Positions 8,402 through 61,721 of a DNA stretch of 64,000 bases are shown piece by piece. Origin of the DNA: Sphingobacteriia bacterium. Lineage in GTDB: Bacteria; Bacteroidota; Bacteroidia; Bacteroidales; UBA7960. Under the pieces are notes generated by a model. That model did no database searches, was not told where the DNA came from, and saw only the letters and a list, made by a program, of their open reading frames with translations. The stretch's first letter is position 1. Every line of letters starts with the position of its first letter. The position numbers and the translations under genes are program-made. Where the stretch lies: NCBI GenBank assembly GCA_011390785.1, contig JAABRR010000020.1, positions 1 to 64,000 of the forward strand, given 5' to 3'.

Positions 8402-8575
8402 ATGAACCGAACCAAGACATAAATTTTAACACACACGGATGATTATAAATCGCAGTATGGTAAAACATGAAGTCAGAGTATTGTTGGCGATTTTTCCCGC
8501 TTTTCGCGGGAGCTCTCTCGTTGAAAAAACGAGACAGGCTATCTGACCACTTTAATCAAATTATACACAGATGAA
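8402..8575 (-). repeat. Interspersed intergenic repeat, copy 1 (long form, 174 bp)
   Basis: Reverse-oriented copy of a repeat also found at 29897-30073, 36381-36510 and 61628-61721. Read on the minus strand it starts TTCATCTG and ends GGTTCAT. This long form carries two adjacent hairpins: CCCGC/GCGGG (8496-8500 with 8506-8510) and TCTCGTT/AACGAGA (8516-8522 with 8528-8534). It closely matches the second long copy along its whole length. It sits between two isomerase genes that otherwise look like one operon, so its hairpins may affect transcription or mRNA stability. It has no coding capacity; it looks like a MITE/REP-type non-autonomous element. Confidence 0.85.
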
Positions 8576-8616
8576 TAAATAAAAAATCATTAAAAAACGA
8601 ACAACAAATTAAAATT

Positions 8617-10395
8617 ATGGCAAAAAAATATTTGGATAAGCCTTCGAAATTTAACAACACCCCAATTGTTGAGGTAAGAAATGATGCTTACCATGTAATT
8701 AACGGTTGGGAAAATATTGTTGTTGAGCTGAATAAGGAGATTCAAAATCTGAAGGGTAAAAAAAAACTGGTGGTTGTGGAAACTTATCAGGGAGTGATTC
8801 ACGAGGAAGTAATGCAGCACCTGGAATCCGGATTGCAATACGACCTGTTTGTCCGGGCCGAGGAATTGATGTTGTCGGAAAATGATCTAAAAATACTAAT
8901 TTACCCGGATGTAACCGACGACCGGATTTTTGGTTATTTAACCCGGCTGGAAATCGACGCCTTTTATGATTCCGAAAAAGTGGAGCAATTACAACAAGAA
9001 CTTGCCGGATTGCAAGAAGGAACTGTGCTAATTTACGGAACCGGTGCGGCACATGTTTGTCCGGAACCCGACCTTTTGGTATATGCCGATATGGCCCGCT
9101 GGGAAATCCAGTTGCGGATGCGAAAACACCTCGTAGATAATATCGGAGTGAATAACCGCAACACCCCCGATTGGATGCTCCTTTACAAGCAAGGTTACTT
9201 TGTAGATTGGCGCGTTTGCGATCGGTTGAAAAAGCAACTTTTCGACAAATGGGATTATGTGCTAGATACCAACAAAGCTGGCTCACCCAAGTTGGTATCA
9301 GGTAAAGCGGTTCTGGAAGGACTAAAAGAAGCTGCGAACCGTCCGTTCAGCGTGGTTCCATTCTTCGATCCCGGCCCATGGGGCGGCCAATGGATGAAGG
9401 AAGTGTGCAATCTTGATCCTTCTGCCGAAAACTACGCATGGTGCTTCAATTGTGTGCCCGAAGAAAACAGCCTGCTGCTGAAGTTTGGTCATGATGTGAT
9501 TGAGCTCCCTTCTATCAACCTGGTTTTTCGCTATCCGCGCGAATTGCTTGGAGACCCTGTCCATGGTCGGTTTGGCGATGAGTTCCCCATCCGCTTTGAT
9601 TTTCTGGATACCATGGATGGTGGCCATCTGAGCCTTCAGGTGCATCCGCTTACTGAATACATCCAGCAGAAATTTGGCCTGAATTACACCCAGGATGAAA
9701 GCTATTATATGATGGATGTGGAGGATGATGCCATTGTGTATCTGGGTTTAAAAGAAGGAATTAAACCCAATGAGATGCTGTCTGAAATGGAAGAAGCGCA
9801 ATCCGGGGGCAAACCTTTTGATGCCGAAAAACACGTGCAAACCTGGCCGGTAAAAAAACACGATCATGTCTTGATTCCAGCCGGTACAGTCCATTGCTCA
9901 GGTAAAAACAGTATGGTGTTGGAAATCAGTGCTACGCCCTACATCTTCACCTTTAAGCTTTGGGACTGGGGCCGCCTCGGATTGGATGGCAAACCGCGAC
10001 CGATTAATATTGAGCATGGCAAAAAGGTAATTCAATGGGATCGTACCACTGAATGGACCCGCCAAAACCTGGTAAATCGTGTTGAAACAGTTGCCGAAGG
10101 CGATGGCTGGGTAGAAGAACGCACCGGCCTGCACGAACGGGAATTTATCGAAACCCGGCGGCATTGGTTTACTAAAAAAGTGGAGCACCATACCAACGGC
10201 GGAGTGAATGTAATTTGCCTGGTGGAAGGGGATGAAATTGTTGTGGAAAGCCCTTCCGCTGCATTTGAACCATTTGTGGTGCATTATGCCGAAGTATTTA
10301 TTGTTCCGGCGCAGGTGGGTGAATACACCATTCGCCCCAGCGAAAACGCCGTTGGGCAAAAATTTGCAACATTAAAGGGATATGTAAGATTTTAA
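8617..10395 (+). CDS. Class I mannose-6-phosphate isomerase-like protein with extra N-terminal domain
   Basis: Predicted metal-dependent phosphosugar isomerase. The C-terminal part, about residues 300-592, has the class I phosphomannose isomerase marks: LQVHP with His343, GIKPNEM near 381-387 and IPAGTVHCSG with His426, all expected zinc ligands or neighbours. Classical enzymes are about 310-390 residues, so this 592-residue protein carries about 250 extra N-terminal residues. That part has a VVVETYQGV strand and a GTGAAHV ... LLVYADMARWEIQ segment recalling a P-loop kinase-like fold, but no GxxxxGK motif, so kinase activity is not supported. Third member of the isomerase cluster, followed 11 bases later by another GPI-family cupin. 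Base composition is visibly richer in G+C than its surroundings. The exact substrate is unknown. Confidence 0.8.
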   Translation: MAKKYLDKPSKFNNTPIVEVRNDAYHVINGWENIVVELNKEIQNLKGKKKLVVVETYQGVIHEEVMQHLESGLQYDLFVRAEELMLSENDLKILIYPDVTDDRIFGYLTRLEIDAFYDSEKVEQLQQELAGLQEGTVLIYGTGAAHVCPEPDLLVYADMARWEIQLRMRKHLVDNIGVNNRNTPDWMLLYKQGYFVDWRVCDRLKKQLFDKWDYVLDTNKAGSPKLVSGKAVLEGLKEAANRPFSVVPFFDPGPWGGQWMKEVCNLDPSAENYAWCFNCVPEENSLLLKFGHDVIELPSINLVFRYPRELLGDPVHGRFGDEFPIRFDFLDTMDGGHLSLQVHPLTEYIQQKFGLNYTQDESYYMMDVEDDAIVYLGLKEGIKPNEMLSEMEEAQSGGKPFDAEKHVQTWPVKKHDHVLIPAGTVHCSGKNSMVLEISATPYIFTFKLWDWGRLGLDGKPRPINIEHGKKVIQWDRTTEWTRQNLVNRVETVAEGDGWVEERTGLHEREFIETRRHWFTKKVEHHTNGGVNVICLVEGDEIVVESPSAAFEPFVVHYAEVFIVPAQVGEYTIRPSENAVGQKFATLKGYVRF

Positions 10396-10406
10396 AAAAA
10401 ACAAAT

Positions 10407-11186
10407 ATGAATTTCAATCCCGGCTTCAATATACGCCCCACCTCCCACCCTATGGGATTCCAATATGGCCCTGATGTTTTTGGACCACAGGTTGAAAACC
10501 GAACACTGGATTCTATTCGGAAAAGTCTGCGCAATCCGCATTGTTCCGGCCCCGATCCTGTTTATTCCATTGCCATGGATGTGGGAAAAAAGGAACATCT
10601 CCACCTACTAAAGCAACATCACTTATTGTATGGTGCGGTAACTTATGCTGCCGGAAAACTGGGCGATGAACCGGTGCGCAGCCAGGGTCACATTCACAAG
10701 GTTTCATTACTTTCGAAATGGTCAACACCCGAAGTTTACGAAATATGGTCGGGCAAGGCCATCATTTACATGCAGGAAACCGCGCAGGAAAATCCGGGCC
10801 GTTGCTTTGCCGTGACGGCTCAACCTGGCGATGTGGTGATTGTACCCCCCAACTGGGCCCATGCAACCATCAGCGCCGACCCATTGAAACCCCTTACCTT
10901 TGGCGCGTGGTGCGACCGCGACTATGGTTTTGAATATGATGATGTAAGGGCACACAAAGGCCTGGCGTGGTTCCCCATTTTAAATTCATCAGGAAAGATA
11001 GAATGGCAAAGAAACCCAAGTTATCAAACCGAAAACCTGATCGAAAAATCTCCTGAAATCTATTCCCAACTTAACATCGCACCCGGCAAGCCCATCTATA
11101 CGCAGTTTGAAGAGCATCCTGAAAAATTCCTTTTTGTACCACAACCACAATTGGTGAAAGTATTATGGCAATACTTTTTACCATAA
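10407..11186 (+). CDS. Glucose-6-phosphate isomerase-family cupin protein
   Basis: Second cupin of the GPI family in this cluster (259 residues), only distantly similar to the one at 7803. Metal ligands are readable as His95 and His97 (GHIHKVS), Glu109 (TPEVYEIWSG) and His152 (PPNWAHATI). The fold is an N-terminal strand region, a cupin core at about 80-185 and a C-terminal extension. The start follows the upstream isomerase by 11 bases, so the two are very likely cotranscribed. Family knowledge suggests aldose-ketose isomerisation of a hexose 6-phosphate. Two GPI-type cupins plus a mannose-6-phosphate isomerase together suggest either different sugar substrates or sequential steps of one conversion; the sequence does not say which. 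Confidence 0.8.
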   Translation: MNFNPGFNIRPTSHPMGFQYGPDVFGPQVENRTLDSIRKSLRNPHCSGPDPVYSIAMDVGKKEHLHLLKQHHLLYGAVTYAAGKLGDEPVRSQGHIHKVSLLSKWSTPEVYEIWSGKAIIYMQETAQENPGRCFAVTAQPGDVVIVPPNWAHATISADPLKPLTFGAWCDRDYGFEYDDVRAHKGLAWFPILNSSGKIEWQRNPSYQTENLIEKSPEIYSQLNIAPGKPIYTQFEEHPEKFLFVPQPQLVKVLWQYFLP

Positions 11187-11626
11187 TAACTATCCACCCA
11201 AACTAAACTGACTGCATGGCTGGAGTATCGATAGGACTATCAGTGGTTTTGATTTTTGCTTGTCTACTAAATCTATTGTCAATTAATTTGTAAATTCGCA
11301 TTTCATAAAGACAACCAGTTTTCACTCATGCAAATTGTCAATCCACTATATGATACTGCCTTTTTGTGCCTGATGCAAAATCAGAAGTACGCCAAAAAGG
11401 TTTTGTCTGTCATTCTGTATGTGGATGTTGTTGATGTTTATCTGGGACAACAGGAAACATATTTTATTGATGTGAGAAATGGTTTTATCTGATGACGAAT
11501 TCAATCAATCGAAGTAAAATGCAATTCTAACGTTTAAGCAATCTGGCGAGTATGATTCGTTAAACATTAATCGGGTGGAAATCATCATGCGAGTTCCATC
11601 AAACCTTTAAAACAAAATTTTTAAGA
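11187..11626 (+). other. Gap of 440 bases holding a nuclease-gene remnant
   Basis: Apart from the truncated PD-(D/E)XK reading frame at 11328-11492, annotated separately, nothing coding is seen. The sequence just before 11627 should hold the promoter of the DUF1080 gene, but no clear consensus box was found. Confidence 0.4.
11328..11492 (+). pseudogene. Truncated Rpn/PD-(D/E)XK nuclease-family transposase-like gene
   Basis: An ATG-initiated frame of 54 residues begins MQIVNPLYDTAFLCLMQNQK and continues YAKKVLSVIL, VDVYLGQQET. This is the characteristic N-terminus of the Rpn/PD-(D/E)XK nuclease transposase-like proteins common in Bacteroidota (typically about 250-320 residues, starting INPLYDxAFKxLMExxxxAKKxLSxIL). 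It ends in TGA just after the YFIDVRNGFI segment, before most of the nuclease core, and the rest of the protein is not found downstream. I infer a decayed remnant. The match is from memory of the family, so confidence is moderate. Confidence 0.6.
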
Positions 11627-12994
11627 ATGAAAAAAACAATCTTAGCAATCCTGTTTGTAGCAGGTATTTTAACAATTCAGGCTCAGGAAAACTGGCAAAA
11701 TCTCTTTAACGGCCAAAATTTCAATGGCTGGGAAAAGCTCAATGGCGATGCGGAGTATATTATTGAAGAAGGTGGTATCATAACTGGTATTTCCCGTTTA
11801 AACACCCCCAACACATTTTTGGCAACAGAACAAAACTACGCAGATTTTATCCTGGAATACGAAGTAAAGGTAGACAACGAACTCAATTCAGGGGTACAGA
11901 TTCGAAGTAACAGTTTTGATTCGTACAATTCCGGGCGCGTACACGGTTACCAGGTGGAGCTCGACCCGGGCTCGAGGGCCTACAGTGGCGGTATCTTTGA
12001 TGAAGCACGCCGCGGCTGGATGTATCCACTGGCAGACAATGAAGCAGGCCGCCAGGCTTTTGTGCAGGGGCAGTGGAATCATTTCAGGGTAGAAGCCATT
12101 GGCAATACCATTCGAACCTGGATAAACGGACAAATGTGCGCCAATCTTGTTGACGATATGACCAGTGAAGGATTCATTGCTCTTCAGGTGCATAGCATCC
12201 GAAACCAGGAACAGGTTGATAAACGTGTAAGCTGGAAAAACATCAGAATAGCAACAAACAGCCTGCAGGAAGCCCGCTGGCCTGTTGATCCAAACGTACG
12301 CGAGATCAGCTACCTGGTAAACGAACTCTCAGAAAATGAAATCCGTAAAGGGTGGAGACTACTCTGGGATGGTGAAACCAGCAACGGATGGATTGGTGCC
12401 AAACTAGATCATTTTCCTGAAAAGGGCTGGGAAATCAATGATGGAGTGCTCACTATTCTTGCCACTGACGGAGCCGAATCAACCGGCCCTGGCGACATCA
12501 TTACCGAAGATGTCTTCGCCAATTTTGAACTGGAACTTGAGTTTAATTTTACCGAGGGTGCCAATAGCGGAATCAAATATTTCGTTGACCCCGAACTTAA
12601 CAAAGGCCCGGGATCTGCCATTGGTTGCGAATTTCAGATATTGGATGATCAAAGACATCCAGATGCCAAAAATGGTGTAAACGGTAATCGTACCCTCTCA
12701 TCTCTTTATGACCTGATGACAGGAGAGATTCTTACCGCTGGTAACAGGGTAAACAAAAGCACCGATACATGGCATAAGGCCCGGATTGTTTCCAAAGATG
12801 GTAAGGTTGAACATTGGCTAAACAATGAGAAAATGATTGAATACGATCGTTTCTCACAAATGTTCAGGGCACTGGTTGCTTACAGCAAGTATGCACAATG
12901 GGAAAAATTTGGCCAGTGGGAACAAGGACATATCCTGCTTCAGGATCATGGCGACACGGTTCATTACAGAAGTATTAAGATACGTGAGTTTTAG
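11627..12994 (+). CDS. Secreted tandem DUF1080 (3-keto-disaccharide hydrolase-type) protein
   Basis: Exported protein of 455 residues with a signal peptide (residues 1-20, ending TIQAQ). Two DUF1080 concanavalin-like domains follow. The first, about 22-205, starts NWQNLFNGQNFNGWEKL and contains LNSGVQIRSN. The second, about 240-455, starts WRLLWDGETSNGWIG and contains GANSGIKYFV and EFQILDD. Such domains are annotated as 3-keto-disaccharide hydrolases after work on Bacteroides glycoside processing through 3-keto sugars. Substrate binding or hydrolysis of a carbohydrate in the periplasm is likely, but unproven here. It lies downstream of the isomerase cluster on the same strand with a 440-base gap, so it is probably a separate transcript. 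A strong terminator follows at 13024. Confidence 0.82.
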   Translation: MKKTILAILFVAGILTIQAQENWQNLFNGQNFNGWEKLNGDAEYIIEEGGIITGISRLNTPNTFLATEQNYADFILEYEVKVDNELNSGVQIRSNSFDSYNSGRVHGYQVELDPGSRAYSGGIFDEARRGWMYPLADNEAGRQAFVQGQWNHFRVEAIGNTIRTWINGQMCANLVDDMTSEGFIALQVHSIRNQEQVDKRVSWKNIRIATNSLQEARWPVDPNVREISYLVNELSENEIRKGWRLLWDGETSNGWIGAKLDHFPEKGWEINDGVLTILATDGAESTGPGDIITEDVFANFELELEFNFTEGANSGIKYFVDPELNKGPGSAIGCEFQILDDQRHPDAKNGVNGNRTLSSLYDLMTGEILTAGNRVNKSTDTWHKARIVSKDGKVEHWLNNEKMIEYDRFSQMFRALVAYSKYAQWEKFGQWEQGHILLQDHGDTVHYRSIKIREF

Positions 12995-13023
12995 AATCGC
13001 TAAAAAATAGAAACCAATTTCAG

Positions 13024-13072
13024 AGATCCGCTATCAGAGAAGTATTCATTTTCTGATATCGGATCTTTTCCT
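13024..13072 (+). terminator. Intrinsic terminator after the DUF1080 gene
   Basis: A long stem GATCCG-C-TATCAGA (13025-13038) pairs with TCTGATA-T-CGGATC (13052-13065) with one internal mismatch, followed by TTTTCCTTTT. It lies 30 bases after the DUF1080 stop codon. Confidence 0.8.
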
Positions 13073-13262
13073 TTTGATGGAAGTCCAATAGGAGACCCAC
13101 TCTATCTGAAATTTTGACAGCAGACACCCCGTTTGAATGCCATTATGTCTTAATAATGAGCTTGTTCGGCCTTGGTTTGTTCTTTGATGAATTGTGTTTG
13201 ACCAATCAATTTTTATCTGCACCTGAAAACAAAACCCTTTCAAAAAAGTAAAACCAGAATAT

Positions 13263-15857: not shown

Positions 15858-15863
15858 CCATAA

Positions 15864-15903
15864 GGTGCAAAGATCAACATGCAAAATCGTTGATCTTTGC
15901 ATA
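15864..15903 (+). terminator. Hairpin downstream of clpB
   Basis: Perfect 13-bp stem TGCAAAGATCAAC (15866-15878) with GTTGATCTTTGCA (15889-15901), loop of 10, starting 8 bases after the clpB stop. No T run follows, so it may act as a 3'-end stabiliser or a weak terminator. Confidence 0.6.
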
Positions 15904-15999
15904 CAATCGTGGTTTTGACTCTTCGCTTTTATATAATGCTGTAAAATATTTCCTATTTTTGCAAGGTCTAAAAAAATGAAGAACTAAAAACCTGCCCTT

Positions 16000-17250: not shown

Positions 17251-17274
17251 TATTTAAAAACTTATTTTGTAATA

Positions 17275-29200: not shown

Positions 29201-29389
29201 ATGACACAAATTATAATTACATCCATAATTGTTTTAGCTGCAATATCTTGCGCGGTCTATTTATTGGTTAAGCGATTCAGGAAGCCTGCTAAAAATACAT
29301 CAAAAGATTGCGCAGGATGTTCATCAGATTGCTCCGACTGCCCCCTGGCCGATCTGAGTTCTTTAAATTCCTTGAAAAATAATCCTTAG
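29201..29389 (+). CDS. FeoB-associated Cys-rich membrane protein
   Basis: Sixty-two-residue protein with one N-terminal TM helix (about 3-23) and a cytosolic CxxCxxxCxxC cluster (Cys37, 40, 44, 47; KDCAGCSSDCSDCPL). This matches the FeoB-associated Cys-rich membrane protein family, thought to play a FeoC-like role, possibly binding iron or an Fe-S cluster. It begins 19 bases after feoAB and overlaps the convergent gene by four bases at the 3' end. Confidence 0.85.
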   Translation: MTQIIITSIIVLAAISCAVYLLVKRFRKPAKNTSKDCAGCSSDCSDCPLADLSSLNSLKNNP

Positions 29390-29802
29390 TCAATTCTAAG
29401 ATCGATCTCCAGCACCCGCACATCGTAACAACGATACTCGCACATCTGATATGAAATAACATCAACCCGGCCGCCATCAACAGCAATTATAGAGTCATTT
29501 CCACTTTTATAATATGCGATGAAAGATAATTCCTTTTCAACATCAAGGTATTCATTAATTGATGATATAGCAAAATCATCTTCCCAGAAAAAGTCTCTGT
29601 TTTCGTAATCTCCAAAGTAACACTCAACATGCACTTCAGGGTTTTCTTCATTAATGGTGAGCAAAATATTTACCAACCCTGCCACCGGACGATCGGTAAT
29701 GCAATCATTATAATCCTGTTGAGTACAATCTTCATATTTGCTTCTGCAACTTTGCACAAAAGACAGAATAAAAACAAGAATTAATAAGATAGGAAGTTTC
29801 AT
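29386..29802 (-). CDS. Hypothetical lipoprotein
   Basis: Protein of 138 residues that I do not recognise. A lipoprotein signal (MKLPILLILVFILSFVQSC) gives a lipidated Cys19. The mature part has seven further Cys, with pairs such as DCTQQDYNDC near the N-terminus and MCEYRC near the C-terminus, suggesting disulfides outside the cytoplasm. It is acidic and has no repeats. It overlaps the stop of the FeoB-associated gene by four bases (convergent), and its upstream region runs into repeat copy 2. Confidence 0.7.
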   Translation of the reverse strand: MKLPILLILVFILSFVQSCRSKYEDCTQQDYNDCITDRPVAGLVNILLTINEENPEVHVECYFGDYENRDFFWEDDFAISSINEYLDVEKELSFIAYYKSGNDSIIAVDGGRVDVISYQMCEYRCYDVRVLEIDLRID

Positions 29803-29896: not shown

Positions 29897-30073
29897 TTCA
29901 TTTGTTTGTAATTTGATTAATTCGGTCAGATAGCCTGTCTCGTTTTTTCAACGAGAGAGCTCCCGCGAAAAGCGGGATAAATCACCAAAAATACTCTAAC
30001 TTCTTGTTTTACCATGCTGCAAATTAATAATCATCCGCGTGTGTGTCAAAATTTTTGTCATGGCTCGGTTCAT
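29897..30073 (+). repeat. Interspersed intergenic repeat, copy 2 (long form, 177 bp)
   Basis: Forward copy beginning TTCATTTG and ending GGTTCAT. It shares the central block GGTCAGATAGCCTGTCTCG, both hairpins (GTCTCGTT...AACGAGAG and CCCGCGAAAAGCGGG) and the right part ATAATCATCCG, GTGTGTCAAAATTTTTGTC with copy 1. Its last bases overlap the 3' end of the ankyrin gene: the TGA stop (30072-30070, minus strand) lies inside the conserved ATGAACC terminus of the element. Confidence 0.85.
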
Positions 30074-33867: not shown

Positions 33868-33897
33868 ACTGATTAAACATTTTTATTGACTGACTTA

Positions 33898-36333
33898 ATG
33901 ATGCAGAAAAACGACTCGATATCAATATTATATGTTGAAGACCAGGATGATGTTAGGCTCTTTTTATCCAAAATCTTATCAAGACATTACAGTAATGTTT
34001 TGTTGGCAGAAAATGGAAAAACAGGTCTTGAAATATATAAAGAATTTAAGCCAGACATAATAATTTCCGACATAAAGATGCCTGTTATGGATGGTTTATC
34101 CATGAGCAGTCGAATAAAAGAAATAGACCCTAAAGCGAAAATAATCCTTACCACTGCTCATAGTGATATGGAATATTTTATTCAAAGTATTGAAATTGGA
34201 ATAAATCAGTATATTTTAAAACCAATAGACAGGGAAAAGCTCTACAATGCTATCGATAACTGCAAAGAGCAGATACTTCTTGAACGCAAGGTAAAAAGGC
34301 AGAACCTTAAACTTATTGAAAACAATCAAATACTCGTAAAGCAGGAACAAGAGTTGCGCGAAAACCTGCAAAAGACTATTGCTTTAAAAGAAATCATTTC
34401 GAAAAGTGAGGAAAACCTAAGAAAAGTAGCAGAAAATATTCAGGATACTTTTTGGTTGATGGATGAAAAAAAAATAATTTTCGTAAACAATGTATTCGAA
34501 ATACTTTTCGAAACCCCTGTGAGAAAAATTTATGACAATCCGGAAATCTACAAAAGCTTTATTCATGAAGACGACCTTGATAATTTCATAAAAATTCTTT
34601 CTAAACATGAAGCCCATCCTGAAGGCAAGCTTGCTGCAGAATTCAAGATTGTTACTCCATCAGGAAAAGTAAAAAATATCTGGTTTCGCGATGTTTTCAT
34701 TAGTGGCAACAAGCCCAACGAAACACGTCGCATCAGAACACTTAGCGATATAAGCTGGAAAATAGAAAATGAAAGATTGCAGCAAGATCTATTGGTTGCT
34801 GAAAAAGCAACGTTGGTGAAGCAAAGACTCCTGGCAAATGTTAGCCATGAGTTAAGAACCCCTCTTAATGGTATTGTTGCAATGGCAGATATAATGGGAA
34901 CCACGGAGTTAAACAATGACCAATTAGAATACATGGCAACCATTAAACAATCTGCCAACGAGCTAATGGCCATTACCAGAAATTTATTGGATATTAATGA
35001 ATTGGATAATGAGGAAGCCATAATTGAAAAAAGAACTATTGAATCAGAAAAGTTTTTCATGTCCATACTCGAGCAATTTGCCCGGGATGCAGAAAACAAA
35101 AAATTAGAATTTACATACTCTTTCCATAAACTATTTCCTTTTTCATTTATCTCTGATCCCCAAAAAATTCAACAAATTTTAGAACAGTTTCTTGCCAATG
35201 CAATTAAATTTACCCCAAAAGGAAAAATAAATATATATTTTTCTGCTGAAGAAATAAACCAGTTTAGAAGCGAAATATCTATTTCTGTTACCGATACCGG
35301 AGTAGGGATAAGAGAAGAGTATCTCGATAGCGTCTTTCAAATGTTTTCTCAACAAGAAGAATCTGACAACCGAAATTATGAAGGATTAGGTTTGGGGCTT
35401 ACACTATGTAAAAAAATTACCCAACTTTTAGGAGGGAAAATACATGTAGAAAGTAGCCAGAATAAAGGCAGTACCTTCACGTTTATTCTTCCGGTTGAAA
35501 TAGCAGAAACAAATCCATCTGTTAAAGCATTGGATGTTAATGAGATACCCGACCTAAAGCTTAACGTGTTATATGTTGAAGATAAAGAAGTAAATCAAAA
35601 GATTATCTCTATTATGCTGGGTAATGCAGGCTGTACCGTGGATATTGCCAACAATGGACAGCAAGCGCTTGATCTTTACGAAAAAAACAAATACGATATT
35701 GTTTTAATGGATATTCAGATGCCCGTTATGGATGGTATTACGGCCACCAAAAAACTAAAAGATAAATACAATAATATGGCTCCCATTATTGGGGTTAGCG
35801 CCAATGCTTTAAGAGCCGATGCACAATACTATTTAACCCAGGGTTTGGATGATTATATTTCTAAACCAGTAATACCAGCCATACTTTACCAGAAGATTAA
35901 GGAATGGACCAGGAATTACAAAAAATCAGATGCTAATCAATTTGAAGAAAATATTGAAAATAACAATAATGCCAATTCTCTCATACCAGATATTGATTTT
36001 CAAACATTTGAAACATTCAAAGAACAAACTCATAACAACATAAGTGTTATCAATGATCTTTATGATACTTTTACAATTGAAGCCGACAACCTGATTCAAA
36101 AAATTGAAAATGCGACGGTAAATTCCAACGAAAAGCTATTATTGGAATCTACACATGCATTGAAAGGATTAAGTGCTACTATTGGGGCTTTAAAAGTATA
36201 TCATTGGGCTTGCGAAATGGACAAATTGCATAAAAAGAAAATTTTCAATCAGAGTAACATCTTGTTTACCAATCTTAAAAAGGATTATCTCATTGCCAAA
36301 AAGATCATTGAGGATTCAATTATTAAATCCTGA
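33898..36333 (+). CDS. Cytoplasmic hybrid sensor histidine kinase (REC-PAS-HK-REC-HPt)
   Basis: Soluble multi-step phosphorelay kinase of about 811 residues with no TM helix. Order: N-terminal receiver (ILYVEDQDDVR; phospho-acceptor Asp58 in IIISDIKMP); a coiled linker; a PAS domain at about 175-290; HisKA with His317 in NVSHELRTPLNG; HATPase (N box FLANAIKF, G boxes DTGVGI and GLGLGLTLCKKI); a second receiver (LNVLYVEDKEVN; Asp605 in LMDIQMPVMDG); and a C-terminal HPt with His753 in THALKGLSATIGA. All phosphorelay residues are present. Start is the ATG at 33898; a TTG at 33886 is also in frame. Input signal and output partner are unknown. Followed by repeat copy 3 and a second hybrid kinase. 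Confidence 0.88.
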   Translation: MMQKNDSISILYVEDQDDVRLFLSKILSRHYSNVLLAENGKTGLEIYKEFKPDIIISDIKMPVMDGLSMSSRIKEIDPKAKIILTTAHSDMEYFIQSIEIGINQYILKPIDREKLYNAIDNCKEQILLERKVKRQNLKLIENNQILVKQEQELRENLQKTIALKEIISKSEENLRKVAENIQDTFWLMDEKKIIFVNNVFEILFETPVRKIYDNPEIYKSFIHEDDLDNFIKILSKHEAHPEGKLAAEFKIVTPSGKVKNIWFRDVFISGNKPNETRRIRTLSDISWKIENERLQQDLLVAEKATLVKQRLLANVSHELRTPLNGIVAMADIMGTTELNNDQLEYMATIKQSANELMAITRNLLDINELDNEEAIIEKRTIESEKFFMSILEQFARDAENKKLEFTYSFHKLFPFSFISDPQKIQQILEQFLANAIKFTPKGKINIYFSAEEINQFRSEISISVTDTGVGIREEYLDSVFQMFSQQEESDNRNYEGLGLGLTLCKKITQLLGGKIHVESSQNKGSTFTFILPVEIAETNPSVKALDVNEIPDLKLNVLYVEDKEVNQKIISIMLGNAGCTVDIANNGQQALDLYEKNKYDIVLMDIQMPVMDGITATKKLKDKYNNMAPIIGVSANALRADAQYYLTQGLDDYISKPVIPAILYQKIKEWTRNYKKSDANQFEENIENNNNANSLIPDIDFQTFETFKEQTHNNISVINDLYDTFTIEADNLIQKIENATVNSNEKLLLESTHALKGLSATIGALKVYHWACEMDKLHKKKIFNQSNILFTNLKKDYLIAKKIIEDSIIKS

Positions 36334-36380: not shown

Positions 36381-36510
36381 TTCATCTGTTTATAATTTAT
36401 TAAATAGGTCAGATGGAGCTCACCAACAATATATTAACTGCATGTTTTGCCATGCTGCGAATTATAATCATCCGCGTGTGTGTCAATAATATTGTCATGG
36501 TTCGGTTCAT
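36381..36510 (+). repeat. Interspersed intergenic repeat, copy 3 (short form, 130 bp)
   Basis: Forward copy with intact ends (TTCATCTGTTTATAATTT ... GGTTCGGTTCAT). Compared with the long form it lacks the two hairpins: the sequence goes from GGTCAGAT straight to GGAGCTC. The right block (GTTTTGCCATGCTGCGAAT, ATAATCATCCGCGTGTGTGTC) is kept. It sits between two hybrid kinase genes, ending 26 bases before the start of the second. Confidence 0.85.
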
Positions 36511-53012: not shown

Positions 53013-53252
53013 ATGAAAACTTTGAAAACGATTTTGCTGATCATTCTTGTTATTATTGCTTTATTTTTTGCATTTCAGAATTTTCAAACTGTAGATATTT
53101 CATTTTATAAATGGAGTGCTAAAATGCCTTTGTCATTGGCAATTCTCGGCATATATATTTTTGGAGCACTATCCGGCGGTGTTTTATTCTCTTTGTTGAA
53201 AAAAATAATTACTTTGGATAAAAAAACCGATAAAATTAAAAATCACTCCTGA
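53013..53252 (+). CDS. LapA-like (DUF1049) membrane protein
   Basis: Small membrane protein of 79 residues with two TM helices (about 4-24 and 39-62). FAFQNFQTVDISFYKWSAKMPLSLAILGIYIFGALSG is the typical DUF1049/LapA pattern. In enterobacteria LapA works with LapB to regulate LPS synthesis; whether that holds here is unknown. It sits within the envelope/stress run, 201 bases after the coiled-coil lipoprotein and 87 bases before the DUF2254 gene. Confidence 0.82.
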   Translation: MKTLKTILLIILVIIALFFAFQNFQTVDISFYKWSAKMPLSLAILGIYIFGALSGGVLFSLLKKIITLDKKTDKIKNHS

Positions 53253-53339
53253 CAATAACCTGCTACATTTAGATATCACTGGTATTAAAAATGTGTAAGA
53301 TATACCAGATACATTGTGGCAAAAATCATTTATGAAGCA

Positions 53340-54659: not shown

Positions 54660-54721
54660 ACACGAAACGAATCACAGAATACAAGTTCTCAAGGTAGATT
54701 CACTAAAAAGCTTTTCATACT

Positions 54722-55606
54722 ATGAAAGAATTAAAAGCCAACGATTTTATCGTTACAAAATCCGTTAAACTAAATGAAATACCAACCGTATTGGAAACGG
54801 ACGAATCAAAAAAGCATAAGAAAAAAGCCCTTAAAAAGGTTGGAAAAAAGCTTGCCAAATTACAGAATACGATGTATGCACACAACCGTCATGGAGTGCT
54901 TGTTTGTTTGCAAGGCATGGATACATCAGGAAAAGACAGTCTTATCAGAGAAGTATTCAGCAAACTCAACCCACGCGGAATAGTGGTTCATAGCTTTAAG
55001 TCGCCTACAAATAAAGAGCTCCAGCACGACTATTTGTGGCGGCATTATGTTGCTTTGCCTGAAAAAGGAAAGTATTCGATCTTTAACCGCAGCCATTATG
55101 AAAATGTACTGGTAACAAGAGTAAATCCCGAATATTTGCTTTTCGAGAATATCCCACACCTAAAGAAAGTTGAAGATATACCCACTGATTTTTGGGAAAA
55201 GAGGCTTAACCAAATCAGAAACTTTGAAGAACATATTGCGCAGAATGGAATCGTTGTATTTAAATTCTTTTTGCACCTGAGCAAAGAAGAACAAAGACTG
55301 CGATTGCTTAGAAGACTGGATAAAAAAGACAAAAACTGGAAATTTGCCCCCAGCGATTTAAGCGAAAGAGAACTATGGGATGAGTACATTCATTATTACG
55401 AAGAAGCCATTAACAAGACATCACTGCCCCACGCACCCTGGTACATTATACCTGCCGATGATAAGCCAATGGCCAGATACCTGGTAGCGAAAATTATTTA
55501 TGAAAAAATGGCACAATATACCAATATCATCGAACCCCTTGCAGATGCTAATCTTTTACAAAATATTGATATGTACAAAGAAATGCTTTCCAGAAAAGAT
55601 GATTAA
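54722..55606 (+). CDS. Polyphosphate:nucleotide phosphotransferase (PPK2 family)
   Basis: Transfers phosphate between polyphosphate and nucleotides (nucleoside mono- or diphosphates). 294 residues, one PPK2 domain. Walker A is GMDTSGKD (residues 65-72), and the Walker B-like/lid region is YSIFNRSHYENVLVTRV, followed by the catalytic-lid stretch LRLLRRLDKKDKNWKFAPSDLSERELWDEY and the terminal APWYIIPADDKPMARYLVAKII. These motifs fit the short single-domain PPK2 enzymes. It precedes treZ by six bases between stop and GTG, so the two are certainly cotranscribed; phosphate-energy reserve and compatible-solute genes grouped together suggest a stress or starvation operon. Confidence 0.9.
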   Translation: MKELKANDFIVTKSVKLNEIPTVLETDESKKHKKKALKKVGKKLAKLQNTMYAHNRHGVLVCLQGMDTSGKDSLIREVFSKLNPRGIVVHSFKSPTNKELQHDYLWRHYVALPEKGKYSIFNRSHYENVLVTRVNPEYLLFENIPHLKKVEDIPTDFWEKRLNQIRNFEEHIAQNGIVVFKFFLHLSKEEQRLRLLRRLDKKDKNWKFAPSDLSERELWDEYIHYYEEAINKTSLPHAPWYIIPADDKPMARYLVAKIIYEKMAQYTNIIEPLADANLLQNIDMYKEMLSRKDD

Positions 55607-55612
55607 ATAATT

Positions 55613-57469
55613 GTGAAAACTATTTTATCCGAACAACGCAGTATAGGTGTTAACTTCCAACCAGGGCAAGAACCCATCGTAAAAGTGTGGGCACCTCATG
55701 CAAAAAGAATATCACTGCAAGTAGAAGGTAAAACCAATATTATCCTTCATCTGGAGCAATATGGTTATTGGCAGGCAAAGTGCCCGGGGTTAAAACCAGG
55801 CGATCGTTACCTGATCAGTGTCAACGATGAAAATACTTATCCTGACCCGGCATCACTTTCCCAACCTGACGGTGTGCATGAATCTTCAGAATGCATAGAC
55901 CTGAATGAGATCAGAAAAATACGTGATGACCTCTGGACCGGAGTTTCTACACGCGATCTTATCATATACGAGTTACATGTAGGCACATTCACACCCGAGG
56001 GTACTTTTATGGCCCTTCAACAAAAGCTTGATTATTTAAAAGATCTTGGTGTAAATGCCATTGAAATCATGCCTGTAGCAGCTTTTCCCGGTTCGCGAAA
56101 CTGGGGCTATGATTGTGTTTATCCTTTTGCTGTGCAACAATCTTACGGCGGTGCCATTGAATTTGCCAACCTGATCAAAGCATGTCATCAGAAAGGAATT
56201 GCCGTGATACTTGATGTTGTTTACAACCACCTTGGCCCCGAGGGCAATTATCTGAGTGCATTGGGGCCATATTTTACTGACAAATACAAAACCCCCTGGG
56301 GCAATGCCATTAACTTTGACGATGCCTGGTGCGATGGTGTAAGGCATTATTTTCTTGAAAACGCCATGATGTGGCTGCGTGATTTCCATATTGACGGGCT
56401 GCGGCTGGATGCCGTTCATGCCATAAAAGACCTTAGTCCAAAACATTTTTTACTGGAATTAAATGAAATTGTTTTGCAACTGAACCATAAAACCGACGCA
56501 AAGCACTTTCTCATTGCCGAGTGCGATCTAAACGATATCCGGTTCATTGACACTCCAAAACAGGGAGGTTTTGGGCTGGATGCCCAATGGTGCGACGAAT
56601 GGCATCATGCTATTCACGCGCTTATGACGGCTGACCGTCAGGGTTATTATGCCGATTTTGGTAGTTTGCAGCAAGTTGTTAAAACATTCAACCATGCCTG
56701 GGTGTATGACGGCAGTTTTTCTCCCCACCGCAAAAAAAAGTTTGGAACATCTACGGTAGGACAGCCCGGGAATCGCTTTGTAATCTTTACCCAAAACCAC
56801 GATCAGGTGGGTAACCGCATGAAAGGCGACAGACTCAGTTCAATGCTCGATTTTGAAAGCCTGAAACTGGCATGTGGGGCTATGTTTGCAAGCCCTTTTA
56901 TCCCCATGCTGTTTATGGGAGAAGAATATGCCGAGAGCAGTCCATTCCAATATTTTATCAGTCATGGAGATAAAGAGTTGATATCGCTGGTGCGCGAAGG
57001 CCGCAAAAATGAGTTACGCGAATTTATAAAAGATGCCGAACCACCCGATCCCGCATCCGAAGATACCTTTCAAAACTCTAAACTTAAATGGGACTATCTT
57101 AACCATGAGACAAAAAGAAAAATGCTTGCTTATTATAAGCAAATGATTGCCTTGCGTAAAGAACAACCCCTGTTAAAACCCGGCAACCGGGATCATATAA
57201 ATGCTTATGAAATACCTGATAAGGAAGCCATTGTAATTATATACAAAAATGAGAAAGAAAGCCTTGTTGCATTGATGAATTTTGGTGAAAGAAACATAAC
57301 GGTAGAATTACCATCAATAAAAGCAACATCTGCCAATATATTAATTTACTCAGCTCACAATCAATGGGGCGGCACTGTAAATGATCATGAAAATCCGTTA
57401 ATTATTACAGAAAACCAACTTACTGTCAATACAACAAGAAAATCATTTGTTCTGTTTCAGACAACTTAA
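55613..57469 (+). CDS. treZ: Malto-oligosyltrehalose trehalohydrolase
   Basis: GH13 enzyme that releases trehalose from maltooligosyl trehalose, the second step of the TreY-TreZ pathway. 618 residues; starts with GTG. An N-terminal carbohydrate-binding E-set domain (1-100; VKVWAPHAKRISLQVEG) precedes the TIM barrel. The catalytic residues Asp266 (GLRLDAVHAI), Glu303 (FLIAECDLND) and Asp397 (QNHDQVGNRMKGDRL) are present, with VYNHLGPEGNYL upstream. The reading frame is open and complete. The partner treY immediately downstream is broken, so the usual substrate may no longer be made by this strain. Confidence 0.92.
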   Translation: MKTILSEQRSIGVNFQPGQEPIVKVWAPHAKRISLQVEGKTNIILHLEQYGYWQAKCPGLKPGDRYLISVNDENTYPDPASLSQPDGVHESSECIDLNEIRKIRDDLWTGVSTRDLIIYELHVGTFTPEGTFMALQQKLDYLKDLGVNAIEIMPVAAFPGSRNWGYDCVYPFAVQQSYGGAIEFANLIKACHQKGIAVILDVVYNHLGPEGNYLSALGPYFTDKYKTPWGNAINFDDAWCDGVRHYFLENAMMWLRDFHIDGLRLDAVHAIKDLSPKHFLLELNEIVLQLNHKTDAKHFLIAECDLNDIRFIDTPKQGGFGLDAQWCDEWHHAIHALMTADRQGYYADFGSLQQVVKTFNHAWVYDGSFSPHRKKKFGTSTVGQPGNRFVIFTQNHDQVGNRMKGDRLSSMLDFESLKLACGAMFASPFIPMLFMGEEYAESSPFQYFISHGDKELISLVREGRKNELREFIKDAEPPDPASEDTFQNSKLKWDYLNHETKRKMLAYYKQMIALRKEQPLLKPGNRDHINAYEIPDKEAIVIIYKNEKESLVALMNFGERNITVELPSIKATSANILIYSAHNQWGGTVNDHENPLIITENQLTVNTTRKSFVLFQTT

Positions 57470-57479
57470 CTCCAAAAAG

Positions 57480-59875
57480 ATGTATAATCCAATTTCTACT
57501 TACCGCATACAATTCAACAAGGATTTCGGCCTGAAAGAGCTGGAAAAGCAAATTGAATACCTGGCTTTACTTGGGATTGGAACCCTATATGCTTCACCCC
57601 TCTTTAAAGCCACTCCAGGCAGTGGGCACGGATACGATGTGGTCAATCCCCTGGAGTTCAATCCAGAAATAACCAATCCGGAAGAATTTAAAACAGTTAC
57701 ATCAAAACTTAAAAAATACAATATTGGCTGGTTGCAGGATATCGTTCCAAACCATATGGCATTTGATATACAGAATACCTGGCTTATGGATGTGCTTGAA
57801 AAAGGAATGGCTTCATTATATCATAAAGTATTTGACCTTGAAGACGGGGTGCCAAATACCGAAAACCGCCTTATGGTGCCCTTTCTTGGTGTAAGCCTTG
57901 ATGAAGCCATACATAATAAGGATTTGCTATTAGGCTGGAAAAAGGGAACCTTTTGGATTTAATACCACGAGAATGAATATCCATGTAATTTTGAAAGTTT
58001 TCGCGATATATTGCAGAATGAGCTCCCCGATGCTCCGGCTTTATTTTTGGAGCATTGGCAAAACCATAATCTGGATAATAATCAACCATCGTCAGAGTTT
58101 TTAAATACGGTATGGGAAACATCAAAAGAAAAGCTGGAACATCTTATAGAAAGCGATAAAAACAGCAAAAGATTCATTGACAACATCCTGGCAGGTTACT
58201 ATTCTGATGAACAACTGATAAAGCAAGCGCTGGAAAAACAACATTACGAACTTTGCCATTGGCAGGAAACGGAAAAACGCATCAACTACCGCCGCTTTTT
58301 TACTGTGAACAGTCTTATATGCCTGCGAATGGAAGATACCAGGGTATTTGAAAAATACCACAGTTTCATAAAGCAATCGATTGGGGAAGAACTCTTTCAA
58401 GGCTTACGGATCGACCATATTGATGGTCTGAACGATCCCAGTAACTACCTCTTAAACCTTCGGAAACTCCTGGGAGAGAATATATTTATTGTGGCTGAAA
58501 AAATTCTGGAACACAACGAAGACCTGCCTGATTTCTGGCCCATCCAGGGAACTACCGGCTACGATTTTCTGGCCACCGTTACCAATCTGCTTACCAACAC
58601 CAAAAATTACGATATTCTCAAAAGCCTTTACAAAGAAGTAACCAACCTGCATGAAAAGCCATCTGAGCTGGTCTACCAAAACAAAAAAATGATACTCACC
58701 ACTTGTATGCATGGAGAGTGGGACAACATCTTTAGCTTATTTGACAAGTTAAATTTTATCGACTACCAAAAAGAAAAAATCAGCAGAGAAATTATTAAAA
58801 AGGCCATTGGTGAGTTTATGCTTGCCTGTCCTGTTTACAGGTTATACCCGCGCAAATTTCCTCTGCAAAACCAAAGCAAAAAAATTGTAGAAGAAATATT
58901 GGAAAAAGCAAAGAAAAGAAATCCTGCTGTAACTCCTGCTCTGGAGCGGCTTGCTTCTGTTCTGCTTTCCGAAAACGCTCAATCTGTTGATGAAAACAAT
59001 AAACTAAAGAAATTCTTTACCCGCCTGATGCAGTTTACCGGGCCTTTAATGGCCAAAGGTGTGGAAGACACCTATGTATCAGTACAATTCCTTTATTGCG
59101 CACAACGGTGTAGGCGATGCCATCAATGCAAAGGCTAGAAGCCAAGCACAAAGTGAGCTGGCGCGATCCGGATGAAACCTACGAGACTGCTGTTTGCAGT
59201 TTTGCCCGTAAATTGTTGGATACTAAAAACGACTTCCTGAAAGCGTTTATTCCTTTTCAACAGAAAGTAGCCTGGTGTGGCATTGTTAATTCCCTGACAC
59301 AATTGACCCTTAAGTGCACCAGCCCAGGCATTCAAGACATATATCAGGGTACTGAGCTTTGGGATTTGACCCTGGTGGATCCTGATAACCGCCAGCCCGT
59401 TGATTACGAGGAAAGACATCGGCTTCTTACAACCATGATTGCAGAAAATAAAGCCAATGCCAAAGAAATGCTACACAAATTGTCTCAAAACCCGTTCGAC
59501 GGAAAAATTAAACTTTGGCTAACTTACACCCTGCTTAATCTCCGAAAGAAAAACCATGAATTATTTTTACAAGGAAACTATATACCATTGAATACCGAAG
59601 GTGAACTTAAAAACAACCTTATGGCTTATGCCCGTATTTTCAAAGAAAAGGGGCTTTTGGTTGTTGTACCTCTCGTTACGGCTGATCTTTCATACAAACC
59701 CTACGGCGAATATCTGAAAGACCTGGATTGGGAAAGTACCCGGATCATTTTACCCGAAAATGCAAAAGGGGATTGTAACAATATACTCACCGGAGAAAAA
59801 CATATTACCAATGGTTCATTAAAGGCTTCAGAAGTATTCAGGGATATTAGCGTGGGTTTAATGGTTAACTGGTAA
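57480..59875 (+). pseudogene. treY: Malto-oligosyltrehalose synthase (treY), multiply disrupted
   Basis: Ten bases after treZ, a GH13 TreY reading frame begins MYNPISTYRIQFNKDFGLKE and shows LYASPLFKATPGSGHGYDVV, GWLQDIVPNHMAF, the nucleophile region LRIDHIDGLNDP and acid/base region VAEKILEHNE. Three lesions: an in-frame TAA at 57960 (FWI*YHENEYP); a shift near 59073-59076 where ACC-TAT-ATG has become ACCTATG (two bases lost), after which EDT continues as MYQYNSFIAHNGVGDAIN in another frame; and a second junction near 59130 into EAKHKVSWRDPDETYE. At that junction roughly 50-60 residues usual in the family are missing, including the conserved THDTKR region that carries the third catalytic Asp. 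The C-terminal part (GIQDIYQGTELWDLTLVDPDNRQPVD) is intact. Non-functional. Confidence 0.85.
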
Positions 59876-59944
59876 AGATTGCAATACGAAAGTTTAATTA
59901 AATAAATAATAATTACACATAATTCAATGTCATTTAGTTAAGAT

Positions 59945-59973
59945 TATTCGACCCCGAATGGGGTCGAATATTT
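59945..59973 (+). terminator. Intrinsic terminator after treY
   Basis: Perfect 11-bp stem TATTCGACCCC (59945-59955) with GGGGTCGAATA (59960-59970) and a GAAT loop, followed by TTTAT. It lies 70 bases after the treY stop. Confidence 0.85.
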
Positions 59974-60055
59974 ATAGAAAACAATAGCTTGTATGACCTG
60001 CAAAAACACTCAACAGGGTATGCAACATCTTTTTATTCATGGTAATATTATAAAA

Positions 60056-60063
60056 TAAATTTG
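60056..60063 (+). promoter_or_regulatory. Candidate -7 box for the AraC regulator
   Basis: TAAATTTG fits TAnnTTTG and lies 57 bases before the AraC ATG. The -33 region (TTTTTA) is weak. Confidence 0.35.
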
Positions 60064-60119
60064 GCATCTTTGTTCCTAATTTTCAATGAACACCCACTAT
60101 TGAATTAATCAGATAAGAG

Positions 60120-61121
60120 ATGTTAATAAAAGTAGAAAATAGCAATCCTGAAGGAATTCACAATGCCCTTAGTTCGAAATTAAATATAAAATACCGTAAA
60201 AGTGGATATGAACATCAAAGCAATTTCCCCTTAAAACAAGGCAATCTAATTCTTAAAAGTTTTCATTTTAACGATGGGTTCGATTTTAATATTCTAAGCG
60301 GAGATATTTCAACTTTTATCCAACTTGAGTTTACTGAAGATGAAAATAACTATTTAAGATACTTTTTTATCAAAAAAGGGGAATTAATACATACTATTAC
60401 CCCTAATATGCGATACCGCCTAACAGATAATTACTCCTGCATGGTAATGGCGAGAGGCGAAAATAATCAGTTATTTACCTTTCCGATACAAAACGATGTT
60501 AAAATACTTTTTCTCCAAATAGAAACGAAAAGATTTTCTATTGATTTAAAATCAGACTTTCTCAGCCTGCCTCCGGTAATAGGTAATTCTTTAATGAATT
60601 ACCAATCAGGCAGTCATTTTATTTACCACAGCAATTATACTTTAAGCATTTCTGATACCATAAATGAAATTTTAAATACTCAAAAAGAAGGCATTATTAA
60701 ACGGTTCTTTTTAGAATCAAAAGCATTAGAATTATTGTGGCTTCAAACTGAACTATATAACAAGGAACTAAAGCTTGGTTATAACCAAAAATTAATCAGA
60801 CAACATGATGTAATAATAATTACTAAAGCAAAAGACTATATACATAATAATCTCAATAAAAATATCACTATCAGTTCTTTATCCAGAGAAGTTGGAACAA
60901 ATGAAACGAAATTAAAAACCGGTTTCAAAAAATTATATGGCAAAACATTCTCAGATATTCTTAGAACTGAAAGATTAAATAAAGCAAAGGTACTGGTAGA
61001 AGAAGGGCAGATGAGTATTAAAGAAATTGCAAATTCTTGCGGATATACGAGCATTTCAATGTTTATTGCCCGATTCAAAGAACGCTTTGGAGATACTCCA
61101 GGCAGATACATGAAATCTTGA
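60120..61121 (+). CDS. AraC-family transcriptional regulator
   Basis: DNA-binding regulator of 333 residues. The C-terminal AraC/XylS double HTH is at about 235-333: ITISSLSREVGTNETKLKTGFKKLYGKTFSDILRTERL, then KAKVLVEEGQMSIKEIANSCGYTSISMFIARFKERFGDTPGRYM, the standard motif. The N-terminal 230 residues look like a cupin-like or other ligand domain with many strands and no clear family. It resembles FecR-independent siderophore/PchR-type AraC regulators of Bacteroidota in overall pattern, but this is weak. It stands alone after the trehalose operon terminator; target unknown. Confidence 0.85.
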   Translation: MLIKVENSNPEGIHNALSSKLNIKYRKSGYEHQSNFPLKQGNLILKSFHFNDGFDFNILSGDISTFIQLEFTEDENNYLRYFFIKKGELIHTITPNMRYRLTDNYSCMVMARGENNQLFTFPIQNDVKILFLQIETKRFSIDLKSDFLSLPPVIGNSLMNYQSGSHFIYHSNYTLSISDTINEILNTQKEGIIKRFFLESKALELLWLQTELYNKELKLGYNQKLIRQHDVIIITKAKDYIHNNLNKNITISSLSREVGTNETKLKTGFKKLYGKTFSDILRTERLNKAKVLVEEGQMSIKEIANSCGYTSISMFIARFKERFGDTPGRYMKS

Positions 61122-61176
61122 AAAGATATTTTCCATATTAAATAGATATAAAGTTTACATTCTTTGCCGTATGCAA

Positions 61177-61632
61177 TCAATATATCGATATTAAATCTGC
61201 TGAAATTCCATGACAACTATTGCAGGCACCGTTTGTAATTTTTGACAACATGATTTTTTCTTCACCATTCGTCCCATAAACTCCAACATACAAACCGTTG
61301 CCAAAGTCAATATTTTCGGTAGTAAAATAATTACCCTTACTGTCTATTTCAATGTCTTTTATAATTGTTCCTGAATTATTGAATTCAGCAAAAAGTTTTA
61401 CATTACCATTAGGATAACCATTAACTTTTGTTTGATCATACAATGAACCTGCAAGGGTAAACCAACCTTCACCATCGCCCCCCTGCACATGGCAATTCAT
61501 GCAGTTTTGACCCAACTTGTGGCTTTCATCAGTATTATTTCTACTGATTACTTTCTCATTTCCATCTTCCTTTTCACAGCCTGATAAAAGCCCTAAAAGA
61601 ATTAATGCGGTTATTAACAACGATTTTTTCAT
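61177..61632 (-). CDS. Di-heme cytochrome c-like lipoprotein
   Basis: Lipoprotein of 151 residues, lipidated at Cys19 (LLGLLSGC). Two heme-attachment motifs are present: CMNCH (Cys44-His48) and CNSCH (Cys137-His141). Between them, residues 50-130 are strand-rich (LAGSLYDQTKVNGYPNG, IKDIEIDSKGNYFTTENIDFGNGLYVGVYG), not the compact helical cytochrome c fold, so it may be an extended di-heme or carbohydrate-binding-like redox protein. It is probably periplasmic electron transfer. Its ATG (61632-61630) lies inside the left end of repeat copy 4, so the 5' untranslated region is made of repeat DNA. Confidence 0.75.
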   Translation of the reverse strand: MKKSLLITALILLGLLSGCEKEDGNEKVISRNNTDESHKLGQNCMNCHVQGGDGEGWFTLAGSLYDQTKVNGYPNGNVKLFAEFNNSGTIIKDIEIDSKGNYFTTENIDFGNGLYVGVYGTNGEEKIMLSKITNGACNSCHGISADLISIY

Positions 61633-61721
61633 CAGTTTATAATTTGATTAAGTCGGTCAGATGGAGCTCGCCACATAATCATCCGCTTGTGTGTCAAAAT
61701 TTTTGTCATGGCTCGGTTCAT
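61628..61721 (+). repeat. Interspersed intergenic repeat, copy 4 (shortest form, 94 bp)
   Basis: Forward copy starting TTCATCAGTTTATAATTTGA and ending GGCTCGGTTCAT. The middle is reduced to GGTCAGATGGAGCTCGCCAC, followed directly by ATAATCATCCGC, so the hairpins and most of the centre are deleted while both ends are kept. The left end covers the start codon of the di-heme lipoprotein gene on the minus strand. Confidence 0.85.

Follow-up and report, generated by a model that had tools for sequence, protein, structure and literature searches.

Miniature inverted-repeat transposable elements (MITEs) are short, non-autonomous, dispersed repeats. The repetitive extragenic palindromic sequences (REPs) associated with TnpA-REP (RAYT) genes consist of palindromic DNA that is present in many copies, lies mostly between genes and is presumed to be mobilized in trans (PMC6006769), while the palindrome-associated transposable elements (PATEs) of Haloquadratum walsbyi are short, contain no transposase gene or inverted terminal repeats, and carry palindromes near their ends (PMC3119063). 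Here, we describe a repeat that resembles all three in the respects just named, found in DNA from Sphingobacteriia bacterium (assembly GCA_011390785.1, contig JAABRR010000020.1, positions 1-64,000, forward strand); this stretch of 64,000 nucleotides is referred to below as the window, and the genome to which it belongs (G000) is a draft assembly of 4.82 Mb in 158 contigs. An initial annotation of the window had reported four dispersed copies of the repeat, two with a double hairpin and two without, with TTCAT as a direct repeat at both ends. All four copies were found in place, with and without hairpins as described, and all four have the direct repeat. Our preferred explanation, to which we assign a probability of about 0.6, is that the copies belong to a non-autonomous mobile DNA family that has hairpins at its ends, uses a 5-nt target and is closest to PATEs or atypical REPs.

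A conserved two-stem core between TTCAT ends

The core of the element is approximately 92-98 bp long and is represented in the window by copy 4 (61628-61721, 94 bp, forward strand), which by its sequence and its order-level matches is the form found across the order; long copies add further hairpins. From the left, the core reads TTCAT, CTG, a TTTATAATTTG loop, GGTCAGATG and then GAACTCGCCA or a variant of it, followed in the right half by a conserved loop (AATAATCATCCTCCTGTGTG at the order level, AATCATCCGCGTGTGTG in the own genus) and TGGCTCGTTTCAT. Stem P1, at the left end, joins CATCTG with CAGATG, and stem P2, at the right end, joins the GAACTCGCCA arm with the TGGCTCGTTTC arm, with two internal mismatches. 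In copy 4, the 5′ arm of P1 (CATCAG, one mismatch) is at 61630-61635, its 3′ arm (CAGATG) at 61658-61663 and the arms of P2 at 61664-61673 (GAGCTCGCCA) and 61709-61718 (TGGCTCGGTT), all on the forward strand, the last of these overlapping the right-end TTCAT (61717-61721). The CAT at 61630-61632, within the 5′ arm of P1, is the complement of the start codon of the gene at 61177-61632 on the reverse strand, a 151-residue open reading frame (ORF) that begins like a lipoprotein (MKKSLLITALILLGLLSGC); the left TTCAT of copy 4, read on the other strand, is the ATGAA with which this gene starts.

The core has a conserved fold consisting of these two stems. Among 19 diverse copies, 92.1% of cells were paired and 8 of the 14 pairs had changed on both sides, with 0 of 500 shuffles as high. 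Among 91 copies (90 distinct) that were aligned to a covariance model, an alignment that leans towards the structure, 91.9% of cells were paired and 11 of 14 pairs showed two-sided changes, in 130 cells, again with 0 of 500 shuffles as high, while the best slid control of the 90-copy alignment reached 45.7% paired. The arms covary as CATCTG/CAGATG, CATGTG/CACATG and CATCCG/CGGATG, and as GCCA/TGGC, GCAC/GTGC and CATCCACG/CGTGGATG; entire arms change in concert between subtypes, for example CCGAGCC/GGCTCGG and ACATCC/GGATGT. At one P2 pair, copies from the own genus and family have G-C 32 times and A-T 8 times, compared to 6 A.C and 2 G.T (p = 3e-4, with no correction for relatedness). Besides one constant G.T pair, 18 G.T and 21 A.C cells were counted, indicating no strand bias; since G.T is not preferred over A.C as RNA would leave it, this supports pairing in DNA. 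Several copies also show, by eye, an inner palindrome close to the right end. A crude stem test of it was weak (mean 3.7 vs 2.9 bp, at least 5 bp in 12 of 91 copies), and we therefore do not count it as part of the fold. The order-level loop AATCATCCTCCTGTGTG (for example, at L230:1471-1563) resembles the 3′ end of 16S rRNA, and its complement contains AGGAGG followed by ATG.

TTCAT is present at both ends of most copies, the other strand reading ATGAA, with TCCAT, ATCAT and TTAAC as exceptions at the left end. Tandem units have one TTCAT in common at their junction. The target is short and fixed, without a variable target duplication, and at the gene rlmH, the copies without the element keep ATGAA. 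An internal ATG(G)AA, in a position unlike that of known guides, is complementary to both TTCAT ends, and judged by eye, end and internal arm vary together in variants from G075 (L318) and G230 (L342). The second of these loci (L342:5172-6373, G230:C16) has a tandem array, with a period of approximately 550 bp, of three variant elements whose ends are TTAAC and TTCAG and whose internal arm has changed to match. No terminal inverted repeats were seen (left end TTCATCTGTTTATAA; right end read inwards ATGAACCGAGCCATG), nor was a GT[AG]G foot seen at the aligned ends. Integron attC sites have the core sites RYYYAAC...GTTRRRY. An attC site was considered and rejected, as by eye the ends read GTTTCAT or GTTCAT and these core sites are absent. 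Of the blocks that the initial annotation considered shared, the right block ATAATCATCCGNGTGTGTC was borne out, with 4 matches at ≤3 mismatches against 0.04 expected from shuffles, while the left block alone was not above chance (12 vs 6.3 expected at ≤3 mismatches, 3 of 100 shuffles being as high). An exact CGGTCAGAT is confined to the copies at 29897 and 61628; the other two have TGGTCAGAT and AGGTCAGAT. At the left end, two copies have TTCATCTG and the remaining two TTCATTTG and TTCATCAG.

Given these features, we propose that P1 and P2 form side by side in the core, in all likelihood while the DNA is single-stranded. The element lies between two TTCAT, either of which could pair with the ATG(G)AA between the stems, similar to the guide sequences of IS200/IS605. 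Insertion would occur beside TTCAT/ATGAA, with the target kept at the left and the element's own TTCAT brought at the right; because the element brings this right TTCAT, it could reinsert at its own end, leading to tandem copies sharing one TTCAT. Many of the tolerated sites would be start codons because ATGAA is a common gene start (Met-Lys, Met-Asn), and at these the gene would retain its ATG and acquire the A/T-rich ...TTATAAACAG leader of the element. The long forms of the own genus carry secondary hairpins in addition.

Genomic spread, start codons and orthologous sites

A BLAST search with the 177-bp copy (E ≤ 1) returned 50 pieces in the own genome, corresponding to roughly 40 sites by reading of the list. 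The high genome-wide density suggested by the initial annotation was an overestimate, and because there are only about 0.6 sites per 64 kb genome-wide, the copies in the window form a local cluster. In the family, 33 of 47 genomes had a match to this query, and of 393 genomes sampled from the order, 45 had a match to the 94-bp core, often over its full length at 70-81% identity, in a search that scored two candidates per genome. The covariance model matched 20 of 20 genomes (E ≤ 0.01), which had been picked since earlier searches pointed to the element there, with 28 matches in G000, 63 in G188, 83 in G277, 144 in G103, 1 in G017 and 2 in G326; in the distant genome G230, 150 of 150 scored candidates matched. 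Long copies in G000 score low because the model suits the core form. One assembly contig of the own genome (L131:3709-3838, G000:C11) stops within an element, so that copy numbers from draft genomes are lower bounds. A strict pattern scan of named records found eight stretches, all from metagenome-assembled genomes called Bacteroidetes, Bacteroidales or Sphingobacteriia. Searches of phage and plasmid records and of IMG/VR gave no match, and no Rfam family matched the window or three loci with core copies (L230, L087, L242). The family is, therefore, neither confined to the four copies of the window nor, at these loci, a known annotated RNA.

The left TTCAT is often the reverse complement of the ATGAA start of the neighboring gene. 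For the own genome, 42 listed left-end rows minus five tandem-internal rows and two look-alikes at right-end flanks left 35 copies, in 18 of which an ORF of 148 codons or more begins with the left-end ATG, compared to 67 of 229 ATGAA sites in the same loci (29%, p = 0.005). At the order level, 34 of 41 copies were at a start (43 rows of a stricter script, from loci L229-L277 with a few from the family, minus two tandem-internal rows), compared to a background of 21 of 94 ATGAA sites (22%, p = 3e-16), and for the family the stricter script placed 19 of 35 copies at a start. The same was observed in G230 (398 kb), where 20 of 30 non-tandem copies were at a start, compared to 100 of 281 background sites (36%, p = 5e-4) or to 48 of 115 ATGAAA sites (p = 0.005); a further 20 hits in this genome were partial. 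The downstream genes are diverse: 65 ORFs were listed and, after exclusion of one overlapping duplicate, the 64 proteins scanned contained 107 Pfam families, the most frequent being SusD in 4 of 64. At one locus (L144:2449-3629, G000:C111), two elements in direct repeat flank a single 272-codon gene, each abutting a start codon, in a cassette-like arrangement. Neither the repeat nor its association with start codons was found described in the PMC literature, as represented by titles, the openings of abstracts and parts of PMC3733652, PMC3119063 and PMC6006769.

Comparison of related genomes revealed orthologous sites with and without the element. It ends exactly at the start codon of rlmH in G000 and G039, while G038 and G033 have the gene and not the element, and none was seen upstream of rlmH in the other genomes examined (30 loci by eye). 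The upstream sequences of G039 and G038 can be aligned over 1,318 bp at 74%, stopping approximately 30 bp short of the element, which indicates that the two loci are orthologous; the gene-proximal stretch does not align. The element is present at an AI-2E permease gene in G000 but missing at its counterpart in G039 (84% protein identity), where the upstream gene is different. In G000, a cytochrome operon contains two copies in tandem; the operon in G017 lacks the element, and by eye the end of the upstream gene there has ATGAA at the matching place. At a ferredoxin-like gene, the element lies at the start codon in both G012 (L054, C38) and G036 (L346:3239-3371, C364), which represent two genera of the family. 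In G230, copies at different loci are up to 98% identical. Both the orthologous sites that differ in the presence of the element and the near-identity of these copies support mobility, and, as judged from sequence comparison, the family is very probably mobile.

Copies in the window and removable hairpins

Copy 1 (8402-8575, 174 bp, reverse strand) is a long form with hairpins A and B, and its left-end ATG lies 46 bp ahead of the start of the gene at 8617-10395 on the forward strand. Copy 2 (29897-30073, 177 bp, forward strand), also a long form with both hairpins, has its left-end ATG 99 bp ahead of the start of the gene at 29386-29802 on the reverse strand; its removable hairpin A (AGCCTGTCTCG...CGAGAG), missing from the short copies, is at 29932-29957 and its removable hairpin B (CCGCGAAAAGCGGGATAAATC) at 29963-29983, both on the forward strand. 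Copy 3 (36381-36510, 130 bp, forward strand) is an intermediate form without hairpins A and B, and its left end points at the 3′ end of the gene at 33886-36333 on the forward strand.

Within the own genus, hairpin A (AGCTTGTCTCG...CGAGAG) and hairpin B come and go independently of each other. Hairpin A is also found, inverted, at a second site near the right end (L014, L015, L021, L027 and others), so that the removable hairpins occupy more than one site in the element. The related form AGCTTGTCTCGT...ACGAGA has 11 exact matches in the genome, all 11 within elements, and thus no free copy of hairpin A outside elements was present among them. Relatives have different hairpins at the same place in the element. 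One copy in the own genome (L143:2405-2689, G000:C87) carries a CCCCCTAACCCCC...GGGGG palindromic repeat between its ends.

Candidate enzymes, rival explanations and comparison with known systems

As non-autonomous DNA, the element would be mobilized in trans, and a candidate enzyme was sought among Y1 HUH transposases. The 81 stretches inspected around Y1-transposase genes (304 kb) comprised two genes of the own genome, 29 further loci of the family (31 of the 59 family Y1 matches listed being inspected in all), 48 loci, and two more (L346, L347) that were fetched because an element was listed within approximately 1 kb. Five of the 81 contain the element: it lies approximately 0.9 kb away at L289, is represented by a left-end piece at L293, lies inside tnpA-like genes at L318, and is at the start of another gene at L346 and L347. 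The two own-genome Y1 genes (L042, G000:C99:31706-32050; L043, G000:C11:109-432) have short palindromes of their own (GGGGCGTAG..., AGACGTGC...), unrelated to the element. At L318 (G075:C8), the element occupies the 5′ part of two tnpA-like genes (2654-2746 and 5367-5459), whose motifs (NHVH, with YIHHNP in one) resemble those of TnpA-REP subclass 2.6 and in which the P1 arms of the element have changed together. A search for a common neighbor gene, with 516 ORFs from 151 loci clustered, gave no transposase-like candidate by eye.

Several results weigh against the mobile-element explanation or parts of it. In none of the 81 stretches does the element lie on both sides of a Y1 gene, nor was any Y1 HUH transposase in them linked to the ends of the element, and in the 47 family genomes, Y1 genes are not associated with it (19 of 33 with vs 7 of 14 without, Fisher p = 0.75; at least one genome counted as lacking the element, G013, matches the core query). 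Since the genomes are incomplete drafts, the absence of a gene from any one of them is weak evidence. An autonomous copy with the same ends, a check raised with the initial annotation, did not emerge from end pairing: no left and right ends were paired more than approximately 300 bp apart in the stretches examined, and by eye the unpaired ends in the own genome look decayed or truncated. As for empty sites in relatives, orthologous sites without the element exist, and none of the compared loci is a base-perfect empty site. One of the 18 own-genome copies at a start (in L021) is an unpaired left-end match, without which the count is 17 of 34 (p = 0.009), and the stricter script gave only 12 of 29 for this genome; the order-level copies, being best BLAST hits, are biased to conserved copies. 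The start-codon enrichment also exceeds what a bare ATGAA target and avoidance of coding sequence would give, so that targeting or selection is missing from the model; the association may stem from targeting, from tolerance or from a benefit to translation. Concerning the fold, further pair types in the 19-copy set did not exceed the shuffled level (11 vs 11.3, with 360 of 500 shuffles as high), in the 90-copy set two P2 pairs are poorly conserved (unpaired in 26 of 87 and 22 of 90 cells), and the DNA folding energy of copy 4 is unremarkable (z = 0.76 and -0.16), with some other copies folding better than shuffles (z from 0.76 to -3.80 over ten folds). Finally, the constant G.T pair, present in 82 of 90 cells, would be compatible with an RNA of the plus strand, and the absent wobble bias is, therefore, not proof of pairing in DNA.

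The main rival is a cis-acting 5′ leader, co-transcribed with its gene, in which P1 would sequester the start codon (CAU:AUG) and control translation, with spread being secondary. Its association with start codons, the inclusion of the ATG in P1, and the retained place of the element before rlmH (G000, G039) and the same ferredoxin-like gene (G012, G036) speak for such a leader, and the element may lie in the transcribed leader. This explanation is nevertheless unlikely given that the 64 downstream proteins have no common function, that 17 of the 35 copies in the own genome and 10 of the 30 in G230 lie away from a start codon, that copies occur in tandem and are absent at orthologous genes, and that there is neither a wobble bias outside one pair nor an Rfam match at the loci searched. 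The related suggestion of the initial annotation, a family of small structured RNAs, is possible and fits less well than a mobile element. A translated leader or bypass element, which would exploit the reverse strand beginning with ATGAA, is hardly credible: in some copies the frame that begins at the right-end ATG stays open until 4 nt or less from the gene start, and 2 of 74 have no stop at all, but the other 72 hold a stop, in many of them early, and indels vary the length out of frame, for which reason a conserved reverse-strand ORF was rejected.

Two further explanations also invoke transposition. The element could be a REP of an unusual kind, matched to a domesticated TnpA-REP (RAYT) that may belong to the Bacteroidetes subclass 2.6; genes of this subclass are described as flanked by atypical secondary structures (Quentin et al. 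2018). A Y1 match was present in 20 of 20 element-bearing genomes, which were chosen largely for having the element and include no control group, and subclass-2.6-like motifs (NHVH or NHIH, YIHxNP) were read in genes of G188, G048, G327 and G075, the two in G075 containing the element in their 5′ part. Among 20 stretches around divergent Y1 genes, however, one (L318) holds the element, and there it is within the gene rather than flanking it. Together with the missing association with Y1 genes in the family and the missing GT[AG]G foot, although subclass 2.6 is also said to lack one (PMC6006769), this makes a REP of this kind rather improbable. A classical MITE left by a DDE transposase, with TTCAT as a 5-bp target duplication, would account for short, dispersed copies with direct 5-bp repeats at their ends; with no terminal inverted repeats and 5 bp that are nearly constant and not site-dependent, it is very improbable.

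A more specific form of the mobile-element explanation, which we offer tentatively and consider possible though doubtful, is that the element homes to start codons: one internal ATG guide would pair with both terminal TTCAT and select single-stranded ATGAA, keeping the ATG of the gene and adding a leader, and an enzyme so far not recognized as its transposase would have carried the element, with smaller hairpins as its passengers, through an order of Bacteroidota. If the mobile-element explanation is right, the leaders of many unrelated genes in these bacteria derive from one mobile DNA family. A target at start codons would then offer a clear example of an element limiting harm by its choice of landing site, and the element could alter the translation initiation of many genes together. 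The family also provides a defined substrate, with known ends, fold and target, for finding its enzyme.

The description of the repeat as a non-autonomous mobile or structural element, MITE/REP-like, holds in outline: the ends are constant and the hairpins conserved, copies are both dispersed and in tandem, and some orthologous sites lack the element. It is not a strict MITE, as no terminal inverted repeats were seen and the 5-nt target is nearly constant, and it does not have the GT[AG]G foot of canonical REPs. It also differs from REPs in its asymmetrical ends, in its length of approximately 95 bp compared to 21-65 nt, and in being recognizable across families, whereas REPs are described as species-specific (PMC6006769). 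No RAYT gene flanked by the element was found at the inspected Y1 loci, where two tnpA-like genes of G075 contain it instead. The likeness to PATEs extends to the removable hairpins, as some PATEs are regularly hit in their palindromes by small repeats, SMR-A (PMC3119063). PATE ends match IS605-type transposons of the same organism, a partner not found here at the inspected Y1 loci; PATEs are haloarchaeal, with start codons unmentioned in the relevant parts of PMC3119063, and the present element belongs to Bacteroidota. The best mechanistic parallel is single-strand transposition by Y1 HUH enzymes. IS200/IS605 elements carry TnpA, while the element has no TnpA gene and is too short to encode a transposase; both have subterminal hairpins, a short fixed left target and an equivalent short sequence at the right end (PMC6006769), and the complementary internal sequence of the element may act as a guide as well. 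In IS200/IS605, a guide lies 5′ of the hairpin foot at each end (PMC6006769), whereas here one internal ATG(G)AA could serve both.

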